Source: Brachionus manjavacas (taxonomy: Eukaryota; Rotifera; Eurotatoria; Ploima; Brachionidae). Taken from it: a stretch of 64,000 bases of DNA. The DNA lies in contig JAHQIY010000014.1 of NCBI GenBank assembly GCA_019054805.1, forward strand, positions 2,108,001 to 2,172,000, in the 5' to 3' direction. The position numbers and the translations under genes are program-made. The notes below the pieces were generated by a model. That model saw only the letters and a program-made list of their open reading frames with translations. It did no database searches and was not told the DNA's origin. This document shows, piece after piece, positions 27,668-44,713 of the stretch. How positions within the stretch are numbered: position 1 is the stretch's first letter; each line of letters starts with the position of its first letter.

Positions 27668-30630
27668 TTGTTTAATTTTTTGTTCAGCACAAAGCACATT
27701 AATTTAAGTTTGTATTTCTATAATTAAATAAATAAATATATCAAGATCAGAAAAAGAAAATAATCTGACTATGCCAAATAAACTTGTTGAAGGCTTCGAT
27801 TTTCTTATCTAACTCGAGGTTATTTTCTAAATTATTGGCTTTATTAGGACAAATAATAATCTCAACTCGGATCATTTTCTTTATCATGCAAATGTCTTAA
27901 TTTATCGAGAGCTATAAATTATTACGCCACACTATTTTTATGATTAATTACTTAAACTTTTCTGTGCAGAATAAAATCTAGTCTTTTAATTAAAAAAATC
28001 TCTATTTTCAATTGTTCAAGCTAAGGTATTGCTAAAGTTTGATCAAAAATAAAAAAATGCTAGCTTGTTTTCGGAAATTGAAAGTATTTTTCAAATATTT
28101 AACAAGTGTTTGAGCAATGGTTCAGAGCGTATTAAATTAAGCACCAGAGCATGTTCCATACATGTAACCTAATAGCTAATTTTTTCTTTAAACTGAAGGA
28201 AATCAGCGTTTCGTCAAGCCTTTCTTAGTTAATTAAATTATTGTGCTAAGTTAACGTAATTTTAAATCTAATAAAAATAGATGATGGTTTAAAATTTCTT
28301 TCATAATAAGAGTAATTATAGAAAAACTTTTAGACATGTTTTTCTTGGCTTTGAAAAGCTATTCAAATATTGAATTAAGTATCAAGAAAAAGTTGAAATA
28401 TTTGAACGAATTTTGCTAAAAAGAACCAAATGGTAAGAGAGTTTAAAGGCACTAAAATGTGCCAAAATGATGCATATATCACAAAATATCTATCAATCAG
28501 TGATATTTGCCTTATCTTAATCTTCAAAATTCAACTTAGTGGATTTTTCTAAATTCATTTGGTTGTATAATCCGAAGCCAGGCTTCATAAGACACTTTTT
28601 CATCAGAGCAAAATTGCTTTATTCTAAACGCTTTATCCGATTTTGGCGATTTATTTCGAGGAACCATAAAAAATAATTAGTTTTTAAATACTTAATGCTT
28701 TTTTATTAAAAAGAATCAGCAAAAATTTTTTTTATATTTTATTTTGAGCAGCGGAAATTGAGAGGAAAATCAGAAATAAAAAATAAATCGTCACTTTCAG
28801 AATAACCACATTTTCTTTGCAAGTTGTTTTAATTTTTTCAGACCTCAACACTTATCTGGAAGATTTTAATTAATTTTTTTTAAGCATATTAATTTACGCT
28901 CATTAATAAAATAAATTTTTAAAGATTTGCTAAATTTACCCTCATTGATGAGTAAATAAAGCAGTTATTGTTAAATAATTAAAATAAAAATTCAATAGAT
29001 AAATATTAAAATTTTCTTAATTTGTTCTATAATGCCTGGATTTTGTTGAGCCAAGAAAGAATAATTGAAAAATCTTGAAATTTTTTTTCAGCAATCGATT
29101 AAAAATTTCCTATTTAGTTTAATTAATTTGAAAAAAAATAATTGATTATTTTAATGACAGTTATTTAGAAATTAAAAAAAATTAAAATTTAATAAACTGT
29201 TAAATTAAATTGGCTTCGTTTTTGATTAAAGATAAGAACTCAATTAAATTCAGAATCTCATTTCATGCAATTTAAATCTTAGGCAAGATTAGCATTTTAT
29301 TAGATCGAGAATACCACTTAAAACCAACTTGAGCATTAAACAATAAACATAAGACTTTAATTATTTTTTATAAATGTAATCGACGCACGGAAGTTCAGAA
29401 TTAAACGGGCCCAAAAATCTTTAATCAATTTCTATCTACTACTGCTCTTGAGTAACACATCGAAATTGCTTTCGTTATCATGGCTCCTATTTCTTGGTAA
29501 AAAATCTCTATGTTCACAGATAATAAGATTAAAAGAACAATGTAAAGAAATAATATCTAACATTTAAAATAAAGTATTATTTAAAGAGAATAATAGTGTA
29601 TTATTATATAATGGAATTGCTAATAGAATTTTAGTTCTAAATGTCTTGGATAAACAATTCCACAAAAAATTAATCAAATTACTCAATTTAGGCTATAGTC
29701 AGTATTTCTAGTCTATTTTTAGTCAATGTATTCATAGATACTTCTAGAAAGTTTCCACCTGTCTTGAAACTAGTTTAGTTCGGCGAGCCTGCTGAGTAGA
29801 CTTATCCAACAACGACCTTATTAGATATAATTGAATTTTTGTTTCAGATTGATTTTTTTTATAAGAATCAAATTTTGCACTCAAAAAAGGAAGATTTTTT
29901 CAACAAAATTCACAGCTTTGGTTAATTAGCAACCAAGTGCTTGGAATATTTAATTTTTTTCTCTTACACAATAAATTAACTTATATTCAGCTTGATTTGT
30001 CCTAAAATTGCTAAATTTTTTTTTTACATTCAAAAAAGTTGATTTTTTTCCAATATTGACTTTATTAAAGAGAAAAATTAAACAAGGATTAAATTTAATT
30101 CAATTTAGTGACAAAAATGATGCGAAAAATATTTTATTTGTGATTGATGATGTCAATTAGAATACTGATTACCCGCGAGTAAATCATCATAAACCGGATG
30201 GATGGCTGGCTGCCACTTAAGTTGCTCTAATCAAGACAGATATTTCGCAAGGAAAAATATTTGCCAAAAAATTTGGAATAAGTCTGTAGATGCTAAATAA
30301 CTTCACATCAAATCAATACTTAGACACTTGTTTGCTAGCAAATAAACTCATATTCAAATAGTTAAGAATAAAAAAATATCTTTAAGCCAAGCAAATACAA
30401 GTGTCATTGATAAAAGACTCTTCCATGAATTTTTATTTAAAGAAATGAAAACTAATTCAATGCAAATTATTCCATTAAATAGTACTTTGTTTAATCAGCA
30501 ATTTAAATTTGTTCAATATCATGAATCAACTTATTCGGTTGATACGTTCCAAGTACGCATTTATCAGTTTTATTTTTATTTTTTGCTTTAGTAGATAATG
30601 TAAAATGAGTATATTTGGCTAAAAAAAAAG
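27668..30630. other. Intergenic / upstream of channel gene
   Basis: No exon recognised. 29690-29830 is locally less AT-rich (TTCTAGAAAGTTTCCACC, CGGCGAGCCTGCTGAG) and could be regulatory; there is no ORF or RNA fold I can name. Confidence 0.4.
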
Positions 30631-33600
30631 ATGGAAAGGACTAGGTTTCCGAATAGGAAGATAGATAGATGTCTAAAGTTTACAATTATCGATAATGTGC
30701 TTTATTTATTTTGTGTGTTGATTCTTAATTTAAATGTGTTGCCTGTTGTTAGTCAATTGGTCGGCAGTGAGAAAACTATGGAGCAGTTTCTCGACCGGTT
30801 GTTACACGAGTCTGTTTATGACAGGAGGATTAGACCATTTTACACGGACAGCAAAGGTAAATAAACTTGAAAAGCTATCTCTAAACACTAAATAAATTTT
30901 TTAGCTTCAGATAGCAAGCCAGTTGTAGTGTTGATGAATATGCACATAAATACAATCAGTAGCATCAGCGAAGTTAACATGGTAAATGAGATTTCTTGCA
31001 AAATTTCCTTTGAACTAATACTAGTTGGATTTTTGTTTAAAGGAGTATACAGTTGATTGTTTTTTTCGCCAAGAATGGTACGATCCAAGGCTGACTTATT
31101 CCAATTCGTCATGGAAGCACGTCGAAGATATAACTCTACACTATGATCTCGTCAACAAAGTATGGACTCCGGACGCATTTTTCAGAAATTCTAAAGATTC
31201 CAAATCTCACAAAATAACTGTACCTAATCGGCTTATTAGAATTTTTCCTGAAGGACGCGTTTTGTTTTCTCAAAGGTTTGTTTTTTTTCAAATGAATTTT
31301 AAATAAAATTTTGTTTTAAATTTAAAAGTCTAAAATAACAAAGAACAGGAACAAAAATTAAAAAATGTATTAACTTATTTATTTAGCGTACAAGTGAAAA
31401 ATCTTTCAGCTAATACAAACATTGCATCTACGAAAAAAAGTCTTTGCGAAAATCATACGATTATATTTTAACAAGTTTTAGACCTTAATGAAAAAAGTCA
31501 TAAAAATTAAAAATTTTTATTTCTGTTCCTGTTCGAAAATTCATAATGCCAGAGTTAATGCAAAAACAAATAAAATTATTAATTGTGATTTAAAATATTT
31601 AAAATTAAATAAATTTAGTTCTTTAAGCAAAAGTGACATCAATCTTTTATGATCGTACTTTTTGTATTCTGGAATACTTGAAGATTACTTCATTAACAAT
31701 TAAGAGACACATAAATAGTTGTACTATAAATAATTTGAAAATTTAGAAAAAAATAATTCTAATCATACAAGGTAAGAATTTTTAAGATTTTAATTTAGCC
31801 GGAGCAGCTTATTTTCCTAATTATACTTTTAATTTAATTTAAAATACTTGAACATGTCAATTCTATCAGATTAATAATAATATTATTTAATTATATTAGA
31901 TTAATAATAGATAACACCTTTTCTTGTTTATATCTTCTTTCGAATGAAAATATTTGAAGTATTTTAAAGTTAAAAAGGAGACTCCTTAGGAAATAATTCA
32001 CTACTTTGCGCTTCAAGGATAAAAAATTCATTAAATCAACAATCGCTTGTTTGTTTTGGGTGAATTCTATACCAGGAATTAAAATTTTCATTTTTTAATT
32101 TTCTGCAACTTGAGTTTCATTTTAACTATTCAACTTTTCAGTTATTTAATCATAAAGAATTTTTGTTTTTTAATCTTTGAATTTATCAATTTTATTAAGG
32201 ATTTTTTTAAAAGTTAAATTTCCATTTTTATTTTTTCAATGGTCAAAATTTTATTAATTATCTAAATAATTATAATTTAAAATATTTTTTTCATAAAGAA
32301 AGGCAGAATATTGTTTAAAAACATTTTTTTTGAATTTCTCTATTCGACGATAAGATTTTTTTTTAGGTTAAAACAAACAATTAACAATTTTTCAATGTGA
32401 GAACTCTTCAAATTAACAAAAAAGAAAATGAAAATTACAAATTTTCAGTTAAATTATGTTATACTCAGATTATGGCTGATTTTAGGTTTTCACCAATTTG
32501 TGGTAAAGATAAAGGGGTTTTGGAGTAATAAAGTAAGACAAAGCTAATAAAAATATTTCAAATAGAAAAATATTTCAAATATTTTTTTTTCATTGAAACA
32601 ACTTTAAAAAAAATTGTCAAAAAAAATTGAAAAATTATTAGAACAAATTTTTAATTTATTTGCAAGAATCATAACAAACAATATTAATAGAACAAAAAAA
32701 AATTTAAATTGGAATTAATTTTATTTAAAATTCTTATTTTTAGTAGATTTTCGGAAAATCTTAAATTTGTCAATTTATTGTCTTTGAAAAATTACGAGAG
32801 ATTATTATTATTATTATTATAAAAAAAAAAAAGGGATTATTTTTCTTTATTTTATTCATTAGAAATTTTTTATGAAAATAATCATGTGAATAAATGATTC
32901 TCTGAAAAAAATTCTATGAAGGGAATTTTACGATCATTGTTATTTTACGTCAAATTACGTGAAGTCAAAAAGGTTATATAAATCTAAAATAATTAATTTT
33001 GATCTATTTAAAAATCTAAAGTTAACAATGAATTAAAAAAGTGTTTTTTTTTAATACTACAAAAATTAAATTTTAGACTTATAGAAAAATTTAGGGAAAA
33101 ATGTCCACTTCCTGGCTCTTAATGATCTCCTTGGAAACTAGTGATGTAAAGTTGATTTAAGTAACTAATTTAAAATCTTCGTTATGAAAAATCTGAAAAT
33201 TGAATAATTAAAAATACAAAAATTAATCATTATTAAAGAATGAAAAAATAAATGATAATAGAAAATGAATAAACTAAAAAGTTGTTCATTAGTCGCAAGT
33301 TTTGAATAATTTGTGTTCTCTTAAAATTGTTTACTGAGAATTAGTTGAAATTTGATTCCCAATGTTCCACAAAGAGCGAATAAGGAAAAATTTAGTTGAA
33401 AAATGAAAAATAATGATTCAAAGTAGTTCCAATTTAGGATTTAAAAATAAAATCAATTGAATCATAAAAATAGAATTGTATTTTTATTTATTTTAAAAAA
33501 ATAAATAAATTATCGGGTATTGAATTTTAAAAGCAAAAAAACTGTTGACAATTTTTATTTTTAAATTTTAAAAATTAATTCTTTAAATTCTATCATCTAA

Positions 33601-36600
33601 TTTAGCTTCTGCAAAACTTATAAAAGCCTCTTAAAAATGCACATAAACATTAAAATTTAAAAATTTTAAACTCATGAGTATTTAAAGAAGCTGAAATTAA
33701 GCTGATACCATTTTCAGAAATAATTTCTCTTTTTTAAGAAAAAAAATATCACTATGGCATTAATAATGGACATTGACTATTATATTTTATTACTTAAGGT
33801 TGACTTTGCGACTTGAATGTCCGATGAAACTGCAGAAATTTCCACTTGATAATCAAACATGCACAATAAACATTGGCAGCTGTAATTCCATTTAGAAAAA
33901 TATAAATTTAAATTTCTATTTTGTTTTAAAATTAAAGTCGGATATACTTTAAAAGATATTATTTTTGAATGGAGCAAAACAACTGACACTTCTATTCCGG
34001 TCACTATAAGCAACAAGCTAGAAATGCCTGATTTTATACTCACGAATCATAAATCTTCGGTTTGTCAACGCAAAACTTCAACAGGTAATCAGTTTTAATC
34101 CTAAATTGGGCACTGTGAAATTCAGTACAAATTGAACTAAAATATTTTTTTTTGCTGAAAAATAAAATCCTCAAAATAATTTAATTTAATTTTAATTTTT
34201 TAAATAAATAAAATATTTTGTCAATTTTGTGTACTGAATTTCACAGCGTTCTCAAATTGAATAAAATCCTAATCTTTATGTAGGCGCCTACGCTTGTATT
34301 GAAGTAAGAATAGAGCTACAACGAGACTTGTCTAGTTACGTAAATGAAGTGTATATACCAAGCTCGTTTGTAGTTAGCCTATCATTCATATCTTTTTTTA
34401 TCGATCACCGAAGTGCGGCAGCACGTGCTCCTTTAGGGGTCACAAGTGTTCTCACCATAACTACAATGCTCGGCGGTAACCTTAATCTCTAAATTGATTT
34501 CAGCAACTTTTCTTATTCTAACTGGACCACGTGGACTGCCTAATGATCGAATTCCTTCTATTGAATTCATTCTATCTTTAGATTAAGATTTTCTATTATT
34601 TAAGGTGCATACGCTTGTCTTGAGGTGCATTTTTATCTAAATCGATCATTTGGTTACTATTTAGTTCAAATTTATATACCGAGTATATTAACATGTCTAA
34701 TATCGTTTGTTTCCTTTTGGATTGATTACAAGGCAGTACCAGCGCGTATTTCAGTCGGTCTTCTTACCGTTCTTACAGTCACAACCCAAAGTTCAGGTAA
34801 TTGACGAAAAGTTGCTGATTGTAGATTTCGAATTTTGAATTTTTTCAAATTAAGGCATCCGATCTCAGCTTCCCAAGGTATCGTACATCAAAGCCATTGA
34901 CGTTTGGATGTCGTTTTGTTTAATTTTTGTTTTTCTTGCCTTACTGGAGTACGCTGTAGTAAACGTCATTGCTCGCAAACAAGAACTTAAACGACTTGTC
35001 CGTCAAAATGAAAGGGTAATTTTTAAATAAATTTATTGTTAAGTTTTTCCATAAAAAACACATCTAAATTTTAAGCAGCAATTATTTTTAATTTTTTTGT
35101 AATCAGAAATTTTTTAAGTTTTGACGCTTTGAATTTTTTTTGTTTTTTCTTTAAGAAATTTCTCTTTGCTAGAAAAATCATAAGAAAATAAAAAAATTCA
35201 GATTCATTTAATAAATATTTCGTGTTCGATTAGAAAAGAATTTGATACCTTAAACTCATGAGATAGCACTGACGTTGCTTAAACAGTAAAAAAAAATGGA
35301 AAACATTGAATATGCTAATGGATCTGAAATGAGGGAAAATATCCAAAGATTAAAGTCTGGCAACTTCTTAGTATTTTTGTGATCACATATTTGTGAAATT
35401 CAGTATAAATTGAACAAAAATGTTTCCTTTTAAAAAAAAATTAAAATGAGAGGTAATGAAAATTGCAACAAACTGTAGACTCACTCATCGGTATAAGTTT
35501 TCGATTAAAAGGATACGGATAATTTATTAAAATAATAAAAAAAAATTTTAGAAAACAAAAAATTATTAAATTAAACAAGAAAAAAAAACATATTTAGTTA
35601 TTTATACTCGTTTTAGCTACCATAGTGAGACCCTAGTGTCTTGCTCTACAGGATAATACATTTCCTAGCCTATCAATATTATATTTTATTTATTGATGAA
35701 TAAACCTCCTTTTAGGAGAAGTAAACAATAAATACAAACTTTAATTTGAAAAAAATCAGAATAACAGCAATTGAGTAAACAGATAAAATATTAAAAGTAA
35801 TAAAAAAATTCAAGTTTTAAAAGCAATAAGTTATATTTAAAAAAATTGTAAATTGAATTAAAGATAAAAAGGTGGAGCATAGCATGCTTCACTTTGTCGC
35901 AATTTTTGTTGTTTATTTTCTTAAATTTTTCAATTTGTACCGAATTTTACAATGCCGATACACACAACAAAATTAAAAGAATCATTAATTTTTTTCCAAA
36001 AAGTCTAAAATTGGTTTTGCAAATTCAAAGTATCAAAAAAATTACAGAACCAATGTTGGGCTGGATCTGTTATAACACCGGTTTTTCTTATAAAAAACAA
36101 GTGTCTATTTTTAATTTTTGGTTTTCAGGGTAAGCCTGCTGCCAAAAAAATTAGAGTGGTCAATTAAAATTTTTTGACCGGTCTCATGTAAATCACTTAC
36201 TTTTTTGTATACTCTGTATTTAAGCGCAACATACTTAATTTTTTCAAGATATTTTAAGACTAAAAATTTATAAATTTAATTTAAAACTTTAAAAATTTGA
36301 ATTTGAAAATGATTATTAATTTAAACTTACTATTTTTATTTGACTTTTTTTTTCATGGATAATCAATGAGTTTAAAATCTTAAAAACCATTTTCCTTTTT
36401 TTAGTTTTTGTACTTCATCAGAATATTATTTTATTCGGTCCTGTTCTTTTTTTTAATTTTGCACTTAGTGGTTATTTTTATTATTATATTAAAAATTAAA
36501 GGGGATCAAGATTTAGCGATTCGGGTATATTGGAGGTAAGAGAAATATTAGTTACAATTTAAATTTATAAAAAGTACAAAAAGTTCAAAAAGGATTTTAA

Positions 36601-37272
36601 CCTTTTTTTTTCAAAAAAATTGATTTGAAAAATGATATTTTTAAGTCAATTTGATATGATATTTGATATGATATGATATGATATTTAACTTTAATACGTA
36701 TAAATAATTTTCCAAAGAATATCAAATTTTGGAGAAAAAAAATTGTCAGCAAAAAAAAATAATATTATAAAATAATGATAAGTAAATTTTTAAATGTCAC
36801 AAATAAATTATGGTGTAGCCATAGTGTAGAATTGTTTTTATTTTAATTTTTTTTTATTTTCCAGAATAAAAGGAAATCCCAAATTCCCAAACTAGTCAAC
36901 TACAGTCCGACAAATGAAAAGGTTCTGATGATCGGAAATCGACTAGCTCATATGAACTCTTACAATAAATGTGATTTGGATCATCACAACAGTCACGAAG
37001 CTCTCGAGTCACTTCTACAACCAAATCTATCCAGTTCAATAAAAAAAAAGCCTCAAAGCAATCATTCTTTGCATGTTGATTCAGTAGTTTCCATATCAGG
37101 CGTTTCACAGCAATCAAGTCCTCAAGCGACATCTCCACTGCCGATTTCAGCTCCTAGAGATGATGCCCAAATGTTAGACTTTGTCTGTAGCTTTTTGTTT
37201 CCTATTTCTTTTATCATATTTAACATTGTTTATTGGATGGTCTATTTGAATATGCAGGTCAATTTTGAATAG
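30631..37272 (+). CDS. Cys-loop anion channel, glycine-receptor/GluCl-like, with duplicated pore exon
   Basis: Pentameric ligand-gated channel of the GlyR/GluCl/GABA-A class, a plasma-membrane receptor for an inhibitory transmitter. Exons: 30631-30856, 30905-30981, 31043-31275, 33799-33881, 33938-34084, then 34284-34475 or 34605-34796, then 34855-35015 and 36865-37272. All are GT-AG and phases close to 508 aa with one pore exon. Seen in order: signal/anchor ~24-42, [18 protein letters not shown], Cys-loop [15 protein letters not shown] (13 residues between Cys), [12 protein letters not shown], the second Cys pair ([13 protein letters not shown]) that marks GlyR and GluCl types, TM1-TM2, [20 protein letters not shown] (TM3), a Ser/Gln-rich loop and TM4 in the last exon. 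TM1-TM3 wording is closest to GlyR. Ligand unknown. Intron 3 is 2.5 kb and intron 7 is 1.85 kb; the others are short. Confidence 0.92.
31276..33798 (+). other. Long intron 3 of the channel gene
   Basis: 2.5 kb of AT-rich intron between the ligand-binding exons. A (TTA)n microsatellite followed by an A-run sits at 32803-32832. No nested gene or TE is recognised. Confidence 0.7.
34111..34246. mobile_element. Inverted-repeat element just upstream of pore exon 6a
   Basis: The left arm at 34111-34135 (CACTGTGAAATTCAGTAC...) and right arm at 34221-34246 are reverse complements apart from a 3-nt gap, around an AT-rich ~85-nt loop. Half of the same sequence (TGTGAAATTCAGTATAAATT) recurs at 35394-35420 in intron 7, so it is a dispersed MITE-like repeat. 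It ends 37 bp before the exon 6a acceptor and could form an RNA stem there. Confidence 0.72.
34284..34475 (+). CDS. Alternative pore exon 6a (TM1-TM2) of the channel
   Basis: 192 nt, phase 1 on both sides, acceptor TATGTAG, donor GGCG|GTAACC. Encodes [35 protein letters not shown] and the pore helix [20 protein letters not shown]. Pore numbering: -2' Ala, -1' Ala, 0' Arg, 2' Pro, 6' Thr, 9' Leu, 14' Met. No stop or frameshift. About 29 of 65 residues match exon 6b. Confidence 0.88.
34605..34796 (+). CDS. Alternative pore exon 6b (TM1-TM2) of the channel
   Basis: 192 nt, phase 1 on both sides, acceptor ATTTAAG, donor TCAG|GTAATT. Encodes [40 protein letters not shown] and the pore [20 protein letters not shown]. 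Pore numbering: -2' Pro, -1' Ala, 0' Arg (the canonical anion-channel PAR), 2' Ser, 6' Leu, 9' Leu, 14' Gln, ending TTQSSG as in glycine receptors. Separated from 6a by 129 nt. Confidence 0.9.
35016..36864 (+). other. Intron 7 of the channel gene
   Basis: Contains half of the 34111-34246 repeat (35394-35420), a short ACCTCCTTTTAGGAGAAG motif at ~35705 whose inverse occurs near 55420, and a (GATAT)n-type microsatellite at 36652-36684. No coding exon supported; the open frame at 35894-36133 looks like chance. Confidence 0.6.
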
Positions 37273-39234
37273 ATTCAGCTTGATTTATTTATACCGATAC
37301 ATTTATCCATCAATAAATAATTTAAATAAATCTAATTAAAGTTTTTTTACAATTTCTTCATCTTGATTAAAAACTTTCAAATCCTTTTCTTAACTGACTA
37401 TTTGTTGATTTATGCAAATAATTGACTTCGTAATGAAAATTTATTCCCGAAACTGGCAAAATTTTTAAATTTTCAAGAATAATGAAGAGCTTTGTGATCA
37501 AGAGATCAATGTTGATGCTTACAGCATTTAAGCATTTAATATTTAACACTGTGAATTAAAAATTTACTGATTTTATTTAAAAAAATTAAACTGGAATATT
37601 TCAAACTTTTACTTTTTAAAAAAAATTTTTTTTATTTGTAATTATATTTTTATAACCAATTAAATAAAGGAAGTGATAATCAGTCTTTTCATGACTTTCA
37701 GGGGACTAGTCTGTTTATTTATTATCAAACTGAATTTAAATTGATCTATTTTTATCGATAAAATTATCCATCAATAAATAATTTAAATATATCTTTTTTA
37801 AGTTTTTTAATAATTTCTTCATCTTGACTAAAAACTTTAATATCCTTTTCGGAACTCACTTTTTATTGATTTATGCGAAAAATTGACAACCAGAAGCAGA
37901 CAAAGATTTTGTAAATTTCATATAGACACGATTAATTCAGGTTTGATGCTTTATTTAGAAAAACATTTCCACAAATTCTATTCTAAATAGGCGTTTTTAT
38001 GATTAATTCTGCATCTCTTTTTCTTCTTTATTCCAGGTATACCCAAGCTCCCTAAGTATATCTTCGTACTCTAATCCTTTTAATTCTATTACCATCTTAG
38101 TCACCCTTTTCTGGATTCCCTCCACCTTATTAATTTCACTTCTAGTCATAGAATTCCATACCGCCGAAGCGAATTCTAAATGTTCTGCCGAAAGCTGGGT
38201 ACAGCTTATTAAACAATCCTATATTAAAAAATTTGAACATTTTCCTTTTTCTACCTAAGACATTGCTTTAGATAGTGCCGCTTCTACTTGTTAACTTTGC
38301 TTTCTATCACTTGAAACCATAATACCTAGATCTTTCTCAACCTCCGATTCCTGCAACCATTATTTTTCTTCTCCATGTTGAATGTAATATTTTTTTCTTT
38401 GGTTCTTCTTCCCGCAATGCATGATTTTCCATTTCTTAAAGTTTAAGGACATTGACCACTTCTTGCATCAATTATTTATTTCATTTATATCTGCTTGTAA
38501 TTCTGATTGTGACATTTAATTCCCCTCTGAAATCACCTTACTATCATCAGTGTACATCTACATTATGTTATTTATTTTGTCTGGCAAGTCATTGTTGTAT
38601 ATCACGAAATTTAAGGGACCTAATACTGATCCTTGAGACACACTACTTGTTATATTTTTCCACCTTGACTCTGACGTGCCCATAACCACCTTTTGCCTTC
38701 TATATATTGATATATTAAAAAAATTTAAAATTAAACGAATGAAAACGAAAAAAATTATTTGATTTTTATGTTTAGATTAAAAAAAATCGTTTTTAAATAC
38801 CAAATATTTTTTGTTTGTTTGTTTGATTATCTAGATAATTTCATAATGATAAGGAAACAAAACAAAATATTACCAAGAATTTTAATAATGGTCAATTAAA
38901 AAGCAGAGAAAATATTTGAAACTAATAAGTTAGCACAGTCTTTAATATGTTAGAAAAACAAAATGTCAGATATAAAGAACAACACAAAAACATGAGCCAA
39001 ATCACTAGTGAATTAAAAATAATCAATCACGTTTTTTTTAAAATTATATATATTAATTATTAATTTAAGTTAAGAGTTTAAATAAGAATATTTAAATATT
39101 AATTAGAAAAGCCTAATTCCATTTTCAATGTTAATTTTTTAAAAGTTGGATTCTTTAAAAATGAAACTATTAATGTACGAAAAAAAATTTAAATTAAGGA
39201 AATTTTTTCATATACATGCATTTATTTAATTATG
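37250..39234. repeat. Duplicated flank, copy 1 (channel 3' end plus downstream DNA)
   Basis: 1,985 bp, matching 46167-48152 with a single visible indel (A5 versus A6 near 37957 / 46877). It starts inside the last codons of the channel's terminal exon and ends exactly where the LTR element begins. It holds a diverged internal direct repeat (37274-37428 versus 37738-37892) and a LINE remnant. Confidence 0.95.
38000..38700 (-). pseudogene. CR1-like LINE remnant (copy 1)
   Basis: Minus-strand frames read SQGSVLGPLNFVIYNNDLPD, MYTDDSKVIS (RT catalytic YxDD), SMSLNFKKWKIMHCGKK, EVEKDLGIMVSSDRK and, at the 3' end, SAVWNSMTRSEINKVEGIQK. Frames are broken by stops and the 5' part is missing. The same relic recurs at 46918-47618 because it lies in the duplicated flank. 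Confidence 0.85.
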
Positions 39235-39586: not shown

Positions 39587-42500
39587 ACCCTTCCCCCCTT
39601 TGAAAAAATACGACTAACTCAAAATAAAACGACCAACCATATAACTAAATATTAAAACTAATAAAGAACTTTAGCTATATGAAGATGATCCACAGCTTGA
39701 CAATGTTTGATGTTGCAAAACACCTCGTTTGCTCTTAAACAATCTACTGCAAAATTGACACTGTCTCTCATCATTCGCCTCATCATTTGCATCAGCCCAT
39801 TCAGAATCTTCATTATTCGTTTCACCTACAACACCAAGTGCTTCGGTTTGAACTTCATGTTCAACTACTGCTGAGTTCAAATCACTTTCCGGCTCATTAT
39901 GTTTCATTCTTGTCTTATGTTTCTTTAAACCATTCTTTGAGCCAAAACTCTTACTGCATATTCTACAACTAAAAATTTGATCGTTTAGATCTTCTAAAGC
40001 AAAGTCATAACCTTCTAAAGCTGACCATTCAAAATTTTGCTGATTCAAATAATTAAAATATAAAATTGATGTTGTATCAAACTCAATTAAATCTTCATGC
40101 TCCAATTTATTTGCTTTTACATTGTTAACGGCAATGCTAGAACTAAAATTTATCGAATTGTCACTTGAATCAACTCTATGAATACCCGTTGATTGTATAT
40201 TCACTCTTTGATTATATTTGACTAGTCTATTATAATGAACATTTTGACATTTACCAGTCGATAATTCACATACTTTATAATTCACATCATTGAATAAACT
40301 TAGTATCCTAAACGGACCTATAGCTCTGGTTATAAAAGCTTGTGACTCACCTGGCTTTACTCTGCTATTTGTCAACAAAACCAAATCACCCTCTTTAAAC
40401 TTGACACCGTTCCTAACAAACTTATCGTAATGGTTCTTTTGTCTAGCTTGGGCTTGTTCCAAATTGTTACGAACAATACCATTGATCGTTTTTAAATTAT
40501 CTTTAAGATTTGATACATAATGTTTGGGTTTTGACGTTTTGTTAATCACAACTGGGTTATCTAACACTACGTCTCCTAGCTTAACAGGTTTCCTACCAAA
40601 TAGGACCTCATATGGTGAATATTTAATAGAACTTTGTTTACTAGTATTATAAGCTGCAACAGACGCTTGTAAAAATTCGTCCCAATTACTGTGTGTACAA
40701 TTCACATACATTGTTAAAATCTGTTTAATTGTTCGAACCATACGCTCAATTTGCCCATTACCAGCAGGGTGATAAAATGTTGAATTTATCTTCTTCAGTG
40801 AACATAATCTACATAACTCTTGAAACAATGCTGACTTAAAATTCACACCCTGATCACTCATTATACCAAATACCATGCCAAATTTACATATTATCTCTTC
40901 AAATACAAACTTAGCCGTTGTATAAGCTGTAAAGTCTTTTACTGCTTTAGCTAGACAAAATTTTGTAAAATAACATATGGCTAGCAAAATATAACAATTT
41001 CCAGATGGAGTAAGCTTCAGTGGGCCAACAACGTCTATACCGATGATACACCAAGGTTCACTCACTGTAATTGGCTTCAACGGAGCTTTGTTATACACAT
41101 TTAAGTGCTTCCGAGTTTGACATTGAAAACAAGTGTCACAAAACTGTTTGACTTCACTTCTGAAATTGAACCAATAATACCTTGAGCTTATTGTGTCAAA
41201 TGTTTTCTCAAAATCCCTATGTCCTGAAAGTGGAATATCATGAAAAAGTTCTAAAACTAAGTCTACAAGACTCTTTGGAACAACTCTTCTAGTCACCCCA
41301 TCTTTTCCTCTAATCACCAAAATGTCATTTTCAAGTTCAAGTCGATCTCTTGCTTTAAGCAAAGGTGTACTAATTGAACTGTCAACAAAATATTGCTTAA
41401 TACATTTTTCGTCTAATTCACCTTTAAGTTTTAATTCAATAACTCTTGCCAAAATTTCATCACTTCTTTGTTCCTTTATCCAATTCACACTTTTATTGAA
41501 AAGTAAACTACTTGAATTTATATCAATACTTTTAACTGCCTGTTCCGGCCTTGACAATAAATCAGCTGTAACATTCTCTTTGCCTGGTTGATACACTAAT
41601 GTATAATCTAAGTCTTGAATCTTATGCATGAGTCTCCCAATTCGACCCATTGGCTCTTTTAAAACTTTCATAGAAACTAATGGCTTATGATCGGTCACAA
41701 AAATCACTGGTCTACCATAAATATACACATTACACTTTTTAGCAGAGAACACAATTGCTAATAATTCCCTTTCTGTAGTCGAATACCTACACTCTGTAGC
41801 AGTTAAGTGTCTACTAATGTATATAATCGGCATAAACTTAACATTCTTGATCTGTCCCATCACTGCACCAATCGCTATAGCTGAAGCATCACACTGTATT
41901 ATAAATGGTAAACTAAAGTCTGGATATGCTAAAATCGGTTCACTAAGTAAAGCCTTTTTAAGTCGGTTAAACGCTTCATGTGCTTCCTTTGAATCACGTT
42001 TTACTTTGAACTTTTGAGTCGACTGACTCATCTTATACAAAATACTTGCTATTTCACTAAAATTTTTGACAAAATCATGATAAAAATTCACTGCACCTAA
42101 AAATCGGATCATTGCTTTAGGTGTTTTTGGAAACGGAATCTCGTTTATCGCTTTAACTTTGTCTGTATCTGGTTTTATACCATCTCGTGTGATTACAAAA
42201 CCTAGATAATTGACCTTATCCGATGCAAATTCGCATTTTTCTGGTTTTAACTTTAAGCCCGCTTTAATAATTCTTGATAAAATCTCCTGAATATGCATCA
42301 AATGCTCTTCAAAGGTTCTTGAAAATATAATGGTGTCATCAAGATACACTAAGCAATACTTGTATGTTAAACCATTCAAAATCATATCCATTAACCTAGA
42401 GAATGTTGGAGGTGCATTTGTCAAACCAAGTGGCATAACAACCCATTGATACAACCGATTGTTAGCTCTAAAGGAAGTTTTTTCCTTGTCTTTCTTACTT

Positions 42501-44713
42501 AGTGGTACTTGAAAATAACCTCTGGCCATATCAATGACAGTAAAAAAATATGCTCCTCCAAGTGCATCTAGAGCTTGGTCTATTCGAGGTAAAGGAAATG
42601 AGTCCTTTTTAGTCACTGCATTTAAACCTCTCATATCAGCTATAAACCTATATTTAATCTTTCCATCTCTTGTCTTCTGCTTCACGATCATAACCGGATT
42701 ACACCACGGACTTGTACTCTCCTCAATTAAATTGTTACTCAACATTTCGTTAATTTGCTTGTCCATTTCACCTTGAAGCGCTTGTGGTATTCTAAATTGT
42801 CTCTGATTAATTGGCTTGCTGTCCCCAGTATCAATTGAGTGTTCAATTAGATGCGTCCTACCAACGTCTCTGTCTGACCACTGAAATGCATTCAATTTTG
42901 CCTTGAGTACTCTATTCAATTTACCAAATTGGTCTTTTGACAGTCGTTTACCCTTCTTAATTTTTGTTAACTTTTCTTCAACATCAGCCATACTACTGTA
43001 TGTTCCAAGCGTCGCACTGTCAACTTCAATCTCTGTTTTTTCTTCAACTAATTCAAAATTTTCAGTTGAAAATCCAACGTAATCATTTGCTTCAACTTTT
43101 ACAGGTTTTGTATTAAGGTTTAAAACTTTAACATAAATGTCACCATTTTCATCCATTTTGCTTACACAATGACTCCAATAGACACCCTCTCCATTACTTT
43201 TAGGTGTAAACATCACATCTTTTTCAGACAACGAATTTACTCCTCTACACTTCACATACGATTCACTTCTAGGTTCTAAAACCACATGATTTACTGTAAC
43301 ACACGGTGATTGGTGTACCGCATTGTACCAATCTCCTTTTAAGTCACAAAAGTTCTCATCAATCATAATTTCATCGTTTGTATGATCTATAACAACACCA
43401 TATTTTTTCAGAAAATCCCTACCTAAAATGATGTCTTTGTCTCTTAATGACGCAGTAATCACAAAACTATGAATAGCTGACCATGAACCAATTGAAATTA
43501 GTACCGGGGCTACAACACAATCTTCAGAAACAAGGCTTGTGACACCTTTGATTGTAACTGGAAACTTTTTGAAACCCCGTTTGTTCATATCAACTTGCTT
43601 ATTCAAAAAATACTTAATTTCGTTCTGCATCTTTGTACTTAGACTATCAAAGCGTATAAGTGAATTTGTTGCACCACCATCAAACAATGCTTTAAATCTC
43701 TGTTTTTCAAAATCATTATTGAAACGTATTTTGCATTTCTTTGAAATCAAACTTGGAACACAAGCTGATAAATTAACGTCAACTTGAACCTCATTATTTT
43801 TTACATCTAACTGCACTGAATTAAACTCTAACTCATCACTTGAGCTACCATTTATTTTTCTTCTATTACCAAATTGGCCCTTTTTCGAACTACTACCATC
43901 TTTGTATTCACTACCATTGTGTCCACTTTGTTTTTCCATTGACTTTTTCCATTTGAAACAATCACTTTTTTTGTGACCTGGTTTCTTACAAAAGAAACAT
44001 ACTCCTTGAAATCTATGCTTATATTGAGCAACATTTGCATCAACCTCTAAAGGTTCAGTTTTTACTTCAGGCTCACCTGACTCAAACTTGAATTGTGTAG
44101 CCATTGTACCATCACTTCTATGACCAATAGCACTTGCTTTAACATTTGGAAGAGTTTCTTCTAGACACTGCAATAATTGATCCCATGTCTTATCAGCTTG
44201 AAACTTGATCAATAACCGCATGTTCTCTGGTAAATGTGCAGCTAATTTATTCTTCAAAAATACCTTCTTTTCGTTGCTACCCAACGTTGGAACAGCTTTT
44301 TCCAATAACCGTTGCAATGCTCTTGCAAAATCAACCACGGTTTCTTCAGGCAATGGAGCACGGTCAAGAAATTCTTGATGCATCGATTCAGCGGATTGAG
44401 AACACCCAGATATTAAAATCTCAAAAATTCTATCAGTGCTATCTTTCTCTTCGTCCTTCATTGCTTCAAACAAACGAGCAGCTTTACCAGTCAACAACAA
44501 TGGTAATATAGTTAACTTCTTTGTTTGATCCCAGTTTAACATGATAGAGTTCAACTCAAACATCCTCTTAAACTCCTTTGGATCACCATTACCATCATAA
44601 CTCTTGACGCCAATATTTTTGGTTTCCATTTCTTAACACACTAAATCAACGAAAGACTAAGCCAACCAACTTAAGCTAAAACTGAGTTCGATCAAACACA
44701 CGCTATCACCAAA

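Follow-up and report, generated by a model that had tools for sequence, protein, structure and literature searches.

Splicing that exchanges part of the membrane domain of a Cys-loop receptor has been described both in C. elegans and in insects. In the C. elegans gene unc-49, a common extracellular block is spliced to alternative blocks carrying subunit-specific transmembrane exons (PMC6920096), and receptors of different composition are reported to differ in picrotoxin block (PMC6920096, PMC11296113). The insect nAChR alpha6 gene carries mutually exclusive exons 8a, 8b and 8c that include part of TM2 (PMC6393475, PMC2064938), with conservation decreasing in the order 8b > 8a > 8c (PMC1919356). 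Genes with tandem exon substitutions are described as enriched in ion channels (PMC9741552).

The window analysed here is a 64-kb stretch of DNA from the rotifer Brachionus manjavacas. It contains, on the + strand, an intact Cys-loop subunit gene of the anion clade with eight exons (30631-37272), exon 6 being present in two versions, 6a and 6b. We consider it probable that in this single anion-clade gene the TM1-TM2 exon was tandemly duplicated and that 6a or 6b is spliced alternatively to give two pores. Exon 5 would be joined to 6a or to 6b, and then to exon 7. The products would be two subunits with a common ligand-binding domain, a common TM3 and a common TM4; because TM1-TM2 would differ between the isoforms, the two pores would differ as well.

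This arrangement resembles the described systems only in part. As in unc-49, an anion-clade gene couples a common part, covering most of the extracellular domain, to alternative transmembrane blocks (PMC6920096, PMC11296113). In unc-49, however, whole 3′ exon blocks encoding the C-terminal part alternate, whereas the rotifer gene would swap one internal 192-nt exon and share TM3, the following loop and TM4. With nAChR alpha6 the likeness lies in internal tandem exons touching TM2, in an old duplication (more than about 300 million years) and in one version being more conserved (PMC2064938, PMC6393475, PMC1919356). That gene belongs to the nAChR branch, however, and the accessible parts of the papers describe its exon 8 as containing part of TM2, with no mention of TM1. 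The alternatives of GluCl exon 3 lie near ligand-binding loops, not in the pore. Insect RDL (exons 3 and 6) and GluCl (exon 3) also provide alternative exons in anion-clade Cys-loop genes, those of RDL altering parts near the ligand-binding loops and not the pore (PMC2064938). Tandem exon substitutions of voltage-gated channels are likewise tandem duplicates, mostly ancient and with convergent cases, but they concern mainly another channel superfamily (PMC9741552). A sequence-only reading of this DNA had stated that it knew of no described swap of a whole pore cassette. As a general statement this does not stand, since unc-49 (PMC6920096) and exon 8 of nAChR alpha6 (PMC6393475, PMC2064938) precede the rotifer gene. 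What stands is narrower: in the accessible parts of open-licence PMC papers we found no description of TM1 and TM2 swapped together as one internal exon in an anion-clade subunit. Titles and abstract beginnings among the open-licence PMC matches listed held no account of this rotifer gene or exon pair either. Pore swapping by splicing is already known, and its single-exon TM1-TM2 form in the anion clade looks new.

The gene model was assembled in frame. Exon 1 (30631-30856) holds the start codon, the signal region and the beginning of the ligand-binding domain, and ends at a GT donor. The ligand-binding domain continues in exon 2 (30911-30981) and in exon 3 (31043-31275), the latter placed by alignment with the Brachionus calyciflorus protein P0001; a start at 31043 gives a Glu also found in P0001. 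Exon 4 (33799-33881) contains the two cysteines of the Cys-loop, 13 residues apart (C-x13-C; gene model and PDB alignment). The ligand-binding domain ends in exon 5 (33938-34084) with the first cysteine of loop C. After the alternative exons, exon 7 (34855-35015) encodes the TM2-TM3 loop and TM3, and exon 8 (36865-37272) the TM3-TM4 loop, TM4 and the stop codon. Either isoform is 506 amino acids long. The introns have a GC content of 21%, the shortest measuring 54-61 nt.

Database comparisons indicate that the gene encodes a Cys-loop receptor subunit of the anion-channel clade (GlyR/GluCl/GABA-A-like). The query used in the protein, PDB, Pfam and 6a-region searches and in the P0001 alignment was one residue shorter than the final model. 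Pfam domains PF02931 (ligand-binding) and PF02932 (membrane) scored above cut-off in both isoforms, and PF02932 was matched along its full profile with 129.4 bits for the 6a isoform and 137 bits for the 6b isoform. With the 6b isoform, all of the best 60 distinct PDB sequences, out of 325 matched, were glycine receptor, GABA receptor or GluCl chains; in this set glycine receptors came nearest, led by GlyR alpha-3 (E = 1.2e-101), followed by GABA-A and GluCl chains. The loop-C Tyr of GlyR alpha-3, which we take to be the aromatic residue that binds glycine, aligns with a Thr in the rotifer subunit. Among the 120 matches listed of 490 in the protein database, the closest was B. calyciflorus P0001 (82% identity over 92% of the query), and the remaining near named matches came from the bdelloid genera Rotaria, Adineta and Didymodactylos. 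Pattern searches of viral and prokaryote contig collections yielded no relative of the channel gene among 69 and 171 matches, respectively.

Exons 6a (34284-34475) and 6b (34605-34796) were checked, and the coordinates first proposed for them, the length of 192 nt each, the matching phase, the stop-free frames and the GT-AG ends all proved exact. A Gly codon is split between exon 5, which contributes its first base, and either cassette, which completes it. Both cassettes open with Gly-Ala-Tyr-Ala-Cys and encode the end of loop C including its second cysteine, TM1, the TM1-TM2 loop and TM2. A further Gly codon is split in the same way between the cassettes and exon 7. Before TM2, 6a reads A-A-A-R and 6b the family-typical V-P-A-R. 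The cassettes share 28/64 residues, or about 29 of 65 with the closing Gly as originally counted, and 100/192 nucleotides. Their agreement at the first, second and third codon positions is 32/63, 44/63 and 22/63; this pattern of well-kept second positions and most divergent third positions leads us to regard them as two protein-constrained copies that diverged long ago and not as a functional copy beside a decayed one. Being homologous, adjacent, of equal length and in the same phase, 6a and 6b have the structural features expected of mutually exclusive tandem exons. The window showed no further cassette or cassette remnant, the best tblastn match beyond 6a and 6b having an E value of 1.4. Among matches at E <= 1 in the 114-Mb, 61-contig assembly, no other tandem pair of exon 6 was seen; this search covered the best candidates in six frames, 8 and 10 matches being scored in two runs. 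The same assembly contains two equal-length membrane-domain matches about 28 kb apart (C6:3577392-3578291 and C6:3605531-3606430), with similar scores of 85.9 and 83.5 bits; they may be two copies of a different receptor gene.

Related genomes had been proposed as the place to look for the same pair, and bdelloid protein sequences do carry it, at the same exon, with the same length and in the same order. Together with the codon-position pattern, this supports the view that an old tandem duplication in one anion-clade Cys-loop gene left two copies, both kept under protein constraint. One type of bdelloid cassette, b, resembles 6b, with 72-77% identity along 64-65 residues; the cassette of P0001 is 91% identical to 6b. 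The second bdelloid type, cassette a, precedes b; where the a-b joint is direct, each has 64 codons and the boundary Gly is shared. Outside bdelloids only b-type forms were seen, namely P0001 and P0002, both b-only. We classified 41 rotifer-type rows (P0001-P0040 and P0043, taken from the 120 matches listed of 490), which are mostly gene predictions: 13 are b-only, 8 a-type, 14 contain both cassettes, 5 neither, and 1 ends after the exon 5-b joint. The 5-b and b-7 joints are present in 13/13 b-only proteins, and full 5-a and a-7 joints in 6/8 a-type proteins; of the remaining a-type rows, P0028 additionally includes part of b, and P0040 breaks off after a. A direct a-b joint occurs in 11/14 proteins with both cassettes, the others having extra residues between a and b (P0005, P0006) or lacking the start of b (P0030). 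As for the proteins with neither cassette, P0035, P0036, P0037 and P0039 show a clean 5-7 joint and P0038 a shorter exon 5. The former four are annotated without TM1 and TM2; if real, they would be subunits that are probably non-conducting.

The type of prediction differs between species. According to PMC7943196, BRAKER models drew on RNA-seq of the species itself in B. calyciflorus, A. ricciae, R. magnacalcarata, R. socialis and R. sordida, on that of a relative in A. steineri and the Silwood species, and on none in Didymodactylos; judging by the species names, the protein rows studied here come from this dataset. On this basis P0031 and P0032 (R. socialis) are the only two of the six full 5-a-7 proteins from species with their own RNA-seq; for P0012, P0017 and P0021 the RNA-seq was that of a relative, and P0020 (A. 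vaga) has another source. The b-only P0001 also belongs to a species with its own RNA-seq, which counts against the reading preferred here. Joints were also observed on short contigs in one open frame: 5-a on a contig of 1150 bp (P0040), and 5-b on contigs of 1436 bp (P0043) and 2034 bp (P0002). Such contigs would fit cDNA.

Among 7/14 of the proteins with both cassettes, mean identities fall from 0.996 for b through 0.929 in the extracellular domain and 0.839 for cassette a to 0.575 in the TM3-4 loop. By this comparison, bdelloid cassette a is clearly constrained, less than b and far more than the TM3-4 loop. Outside rotifers, the Elysia protein P0121 was considered as a case of a doubled cassette in another lineage and rejected; its two cassettes are identical, which suggests an artefact of assembly or gene modelling. 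Similarly, P0126 from Plakobranchus ocellatus combines a receptor protein with a reverse-transcriptase domain (PF00078), and is probably a gene-model artefact.

Alternative use of 6a and 6b is likely in view of these proteins, and we infer that in B. manjavacas both cassettes are spliced, are used alternatively and form functionally different pores. Two other fates of the pair have to be weighed. In one, 6a would be a relic, or a poison or little-used exon, open by chance or because it was used until recently, and 6b would form the only productive pore. A monogonont product of 6a was indeed not found: the 6a-region search, which reaches relatives sharing 5-residue words, had the bdelloid P0029 as its single hit among 60 candidates. 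Clustering of the database at 90% identity could, however, hide an isoform that differs in exon 6 alone. The long branch of 6a in the cassette tree (2.77), the unusual A-A-A-R before TM2 and the Pro at 2′ also speak for this fate. Against it, 6a keeps 64 codons free of stops, an event with a probability of about 0.0014 at intron composition; its GC content is 42% (36% in 6b) as compared to 21% in the introns, and its in-frame codon score of 0.46 is higher than that of its five other frames. The holding of second codon positions and the conservation of cassette a in bdelloids point the same way, and we regard a relic 6a as improbable.

In the other, 6a and 6b would be included together, to give a subunit with six membrane segments (TM1a-TM2a-TM1b-TM2b-TM3-TM4). 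Since 192 is a multiple of 3, as had been pointed out, the frame is kept with both cassettes in, and in the gene model also with both skipped. A double TM1-TM2 would presumably keep the membrane topology because each cassette begins and ends outside. The proteins with both cassettes described above, most of them with a direct a-b joint, agree with joint inclusion. Merging of in-frame exons is a common tendency of gene predictors; these proteins are therefore an expected artefact and carry little weight, whereas those with a alone or b alone, which also exist in bdelloids (mostly as predictions and not as reads), carry more. The a-7 joint in six a-type proteins and the 5-b joint in 13 b-only proteins argue against this reading, and we know of no receptor with a doubled TM1-TM2; joint inclusion therefore seems highly improbable to us. 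The earlier claim that exclusion must be regulated is nevertheless too strong, as bdelloid annotations include 14/41 proteins with both cassettes and 5/41 with neither, all in frame, and the latter, with their clean 5-7 joint or shorter exon 5, count against strict exclusion. Crowding is no obvious explanation of exclusion either, because the 6a-6b intron has 129 nt as compared to 54-61 nt for the shortest introns, and surveillance of frame shifts cannot explain it because both joinings stay in frame.

Alternative splicing of 6a and 6b being the preferred reading, we asked whether the monogonont and bdelloid pairs go back to one duplication. A cassette tree was computed from 41 hand-picked rows and 65 columns, with 6a, 6b, P0001 and P0002 (b-type), 11 bdelloid-type a, 5 bdelloid b and 21 outgroup cassettes. 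The best tree sets 6a apart from bdelloid a, and places bdelloid a and b together on one side of a branch (support 11/0), which would be expected of independent duplications in the two groups. Six columns agree with this by uniting 6a with b against bdelloid a. Eight columns, on the other hand, unite 6a with bdelloid a against every b; one of them is 7′, where 6a and 9/11 bdelloid a cassettes have Ser while 21/21 outgroup rows have Thr. In constraint tests, forcing the a cassettes into one clade lowers the likelihood by 2.2 lnL units (p = 0.364), and forcing a monogonont-only duplication lowers it by 7.4 (p = 0.144); neither is rejected. The tree thus leaves the matter undecided. Because position, order and length are the same in both rotifer groups, we judge a single origin of the pairs to be likely, and independent duplications to be rather unlikely.

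Within the pore, the residues named at the outset are correct: -2′ Ala in 6a and Pro in 6b, 2′ Pro and Ser, 6′ Thr and Leu, 14′ Met and Gln. Bdelloid b cassettes have the same residues as 6b at these four positions (Pro, Ser, Leu and Gln). The bdelloid a row P0012 has Pro at -2′, Leu at 2′, Leu at 6′, Val at 9′ and Lys at 14′. As judged from such alignments, 6b appears to be a slow-evolving pore typical of the family and 6a a fast-evolving variant; 6a and the bdelloid a cassette of P0012 both seem to depart from the usual pore, in different ways. The Pro/Ala difference at -2′ had been put forward as a functional theme of the pair. It does not extend that far, since Pro is kept in 11/11 bdelloid-type a cassettes of the tree and the contrast is limited to the B. 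manjavacas lineage. The motif P-A-R before TM2 is present in 6b and absent in 6a, which has A-A-R. GABA-A beta subunits are without P-A-R, yet they are anionic. P-A-R is found in RDL and is absent in GRD and LCCH3, an absence that may underlie the cation channels formed jointly by GRD and LCCH3 (PMC2064938).

A possible element of the splicing choice was found in the introns on either side of 6b. A 13-nt arm at 34500-34512 in the 6a-6b intron is perfectly complementary to a 13-nt arm at 34806-34818 in the 6b-7 intron (both given on the + strand). Pairing of these arms would loop out 6b, bringing the donor of 6a toward exon 7; with the helix formed, 24 nt before it and 36 nt after it would separate the two, about the length of the gene's short introns. 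A run of 13 nt was reached in 1/1000 dinucleotide shuffles in each of two runs. The test covered seven exons in all, and around the six others, with introns trimmed to the adjacent 200 nt, the best runs were equalled in 154-658/1000 shuffles. The duplex energy is the weaker measure, 41/1000 shuffles doing as well. The predicted local fold includes the helix with a probability of at least 0.96 per pair. Around 6a, the best competing pairing was a 9-nt run, reached in 363-378/1000 shuffles, and pairing of intron 5 with the 6a-6b or the 6b-7 intron, was at chance level. The Dscam1 docking site-selector system also uses base pairing beside alternative exons; its pairings rest on species comparison (PMC8042237), however, whereas the rotifer match is a single one of 13 nt in one genome. 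Because no comparable pairing flanks 6a and one genome was read, we treat the helix as a candidate mechanism of splicing choice and not as an established docking system. A scan of positions 30000-38000 against Rfam gave nothing at gathering score.

Put together, the observations allow a far-reaching picture: a pore switch kept since before the monogonont/bdelloid split, chosen by the helix that loops out 6b, in which the 6a pore, with its Pro at 2′ and without P-A-R, would be altered in selectivity or drug block. That all of these parts hold at once is very doubtful. If they did, one gene would supply receptors that share a ligand-binding head and differ in conductance. Alternative use of 6a and 6b would by itself yield a natural receptor pair, differing in TM1-TM2 alone, and with it a clean test of the part played by the pore in conductance, selectivity and block. 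It would also add a single-exon pore swap of the anion clade to unc-49 and nAChR alpha6, and would point to several origins of splicing-based pore exchange within the Cys-loop superfamily.

The intron between exon 5 and 6a contains another structure, a hairpin at 34113-34246 (+ strand) with perfect terminal inverted repeats of 17 nt. It folds far better than shuffled sequences (z = -7.1, 0/200) and was considered as a splicing structure specific to the gene. We rejected this idea because the hairpin belongs to a dispersed, MITE-like inverted repeat. The repeat gave 32 match rows across the assembly, including the window's own two, and the channel gene's last intron holds two further copies of its end, at 35392 and 35928, which carry 1 and 3 mismatches. 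Downstream of the gene, broken pieces of a non-LTR reverse-transcriptase-like frame can be recognised by eye on the - strand at 38003-38776. Also on the - strand, the list of open reading frames contains a frame of 1653 codons at 39671-44632, which we take to be a retrotransposon polyprotein of the Ty3/gypsy type, with zinc-finger-like motifs at its end.
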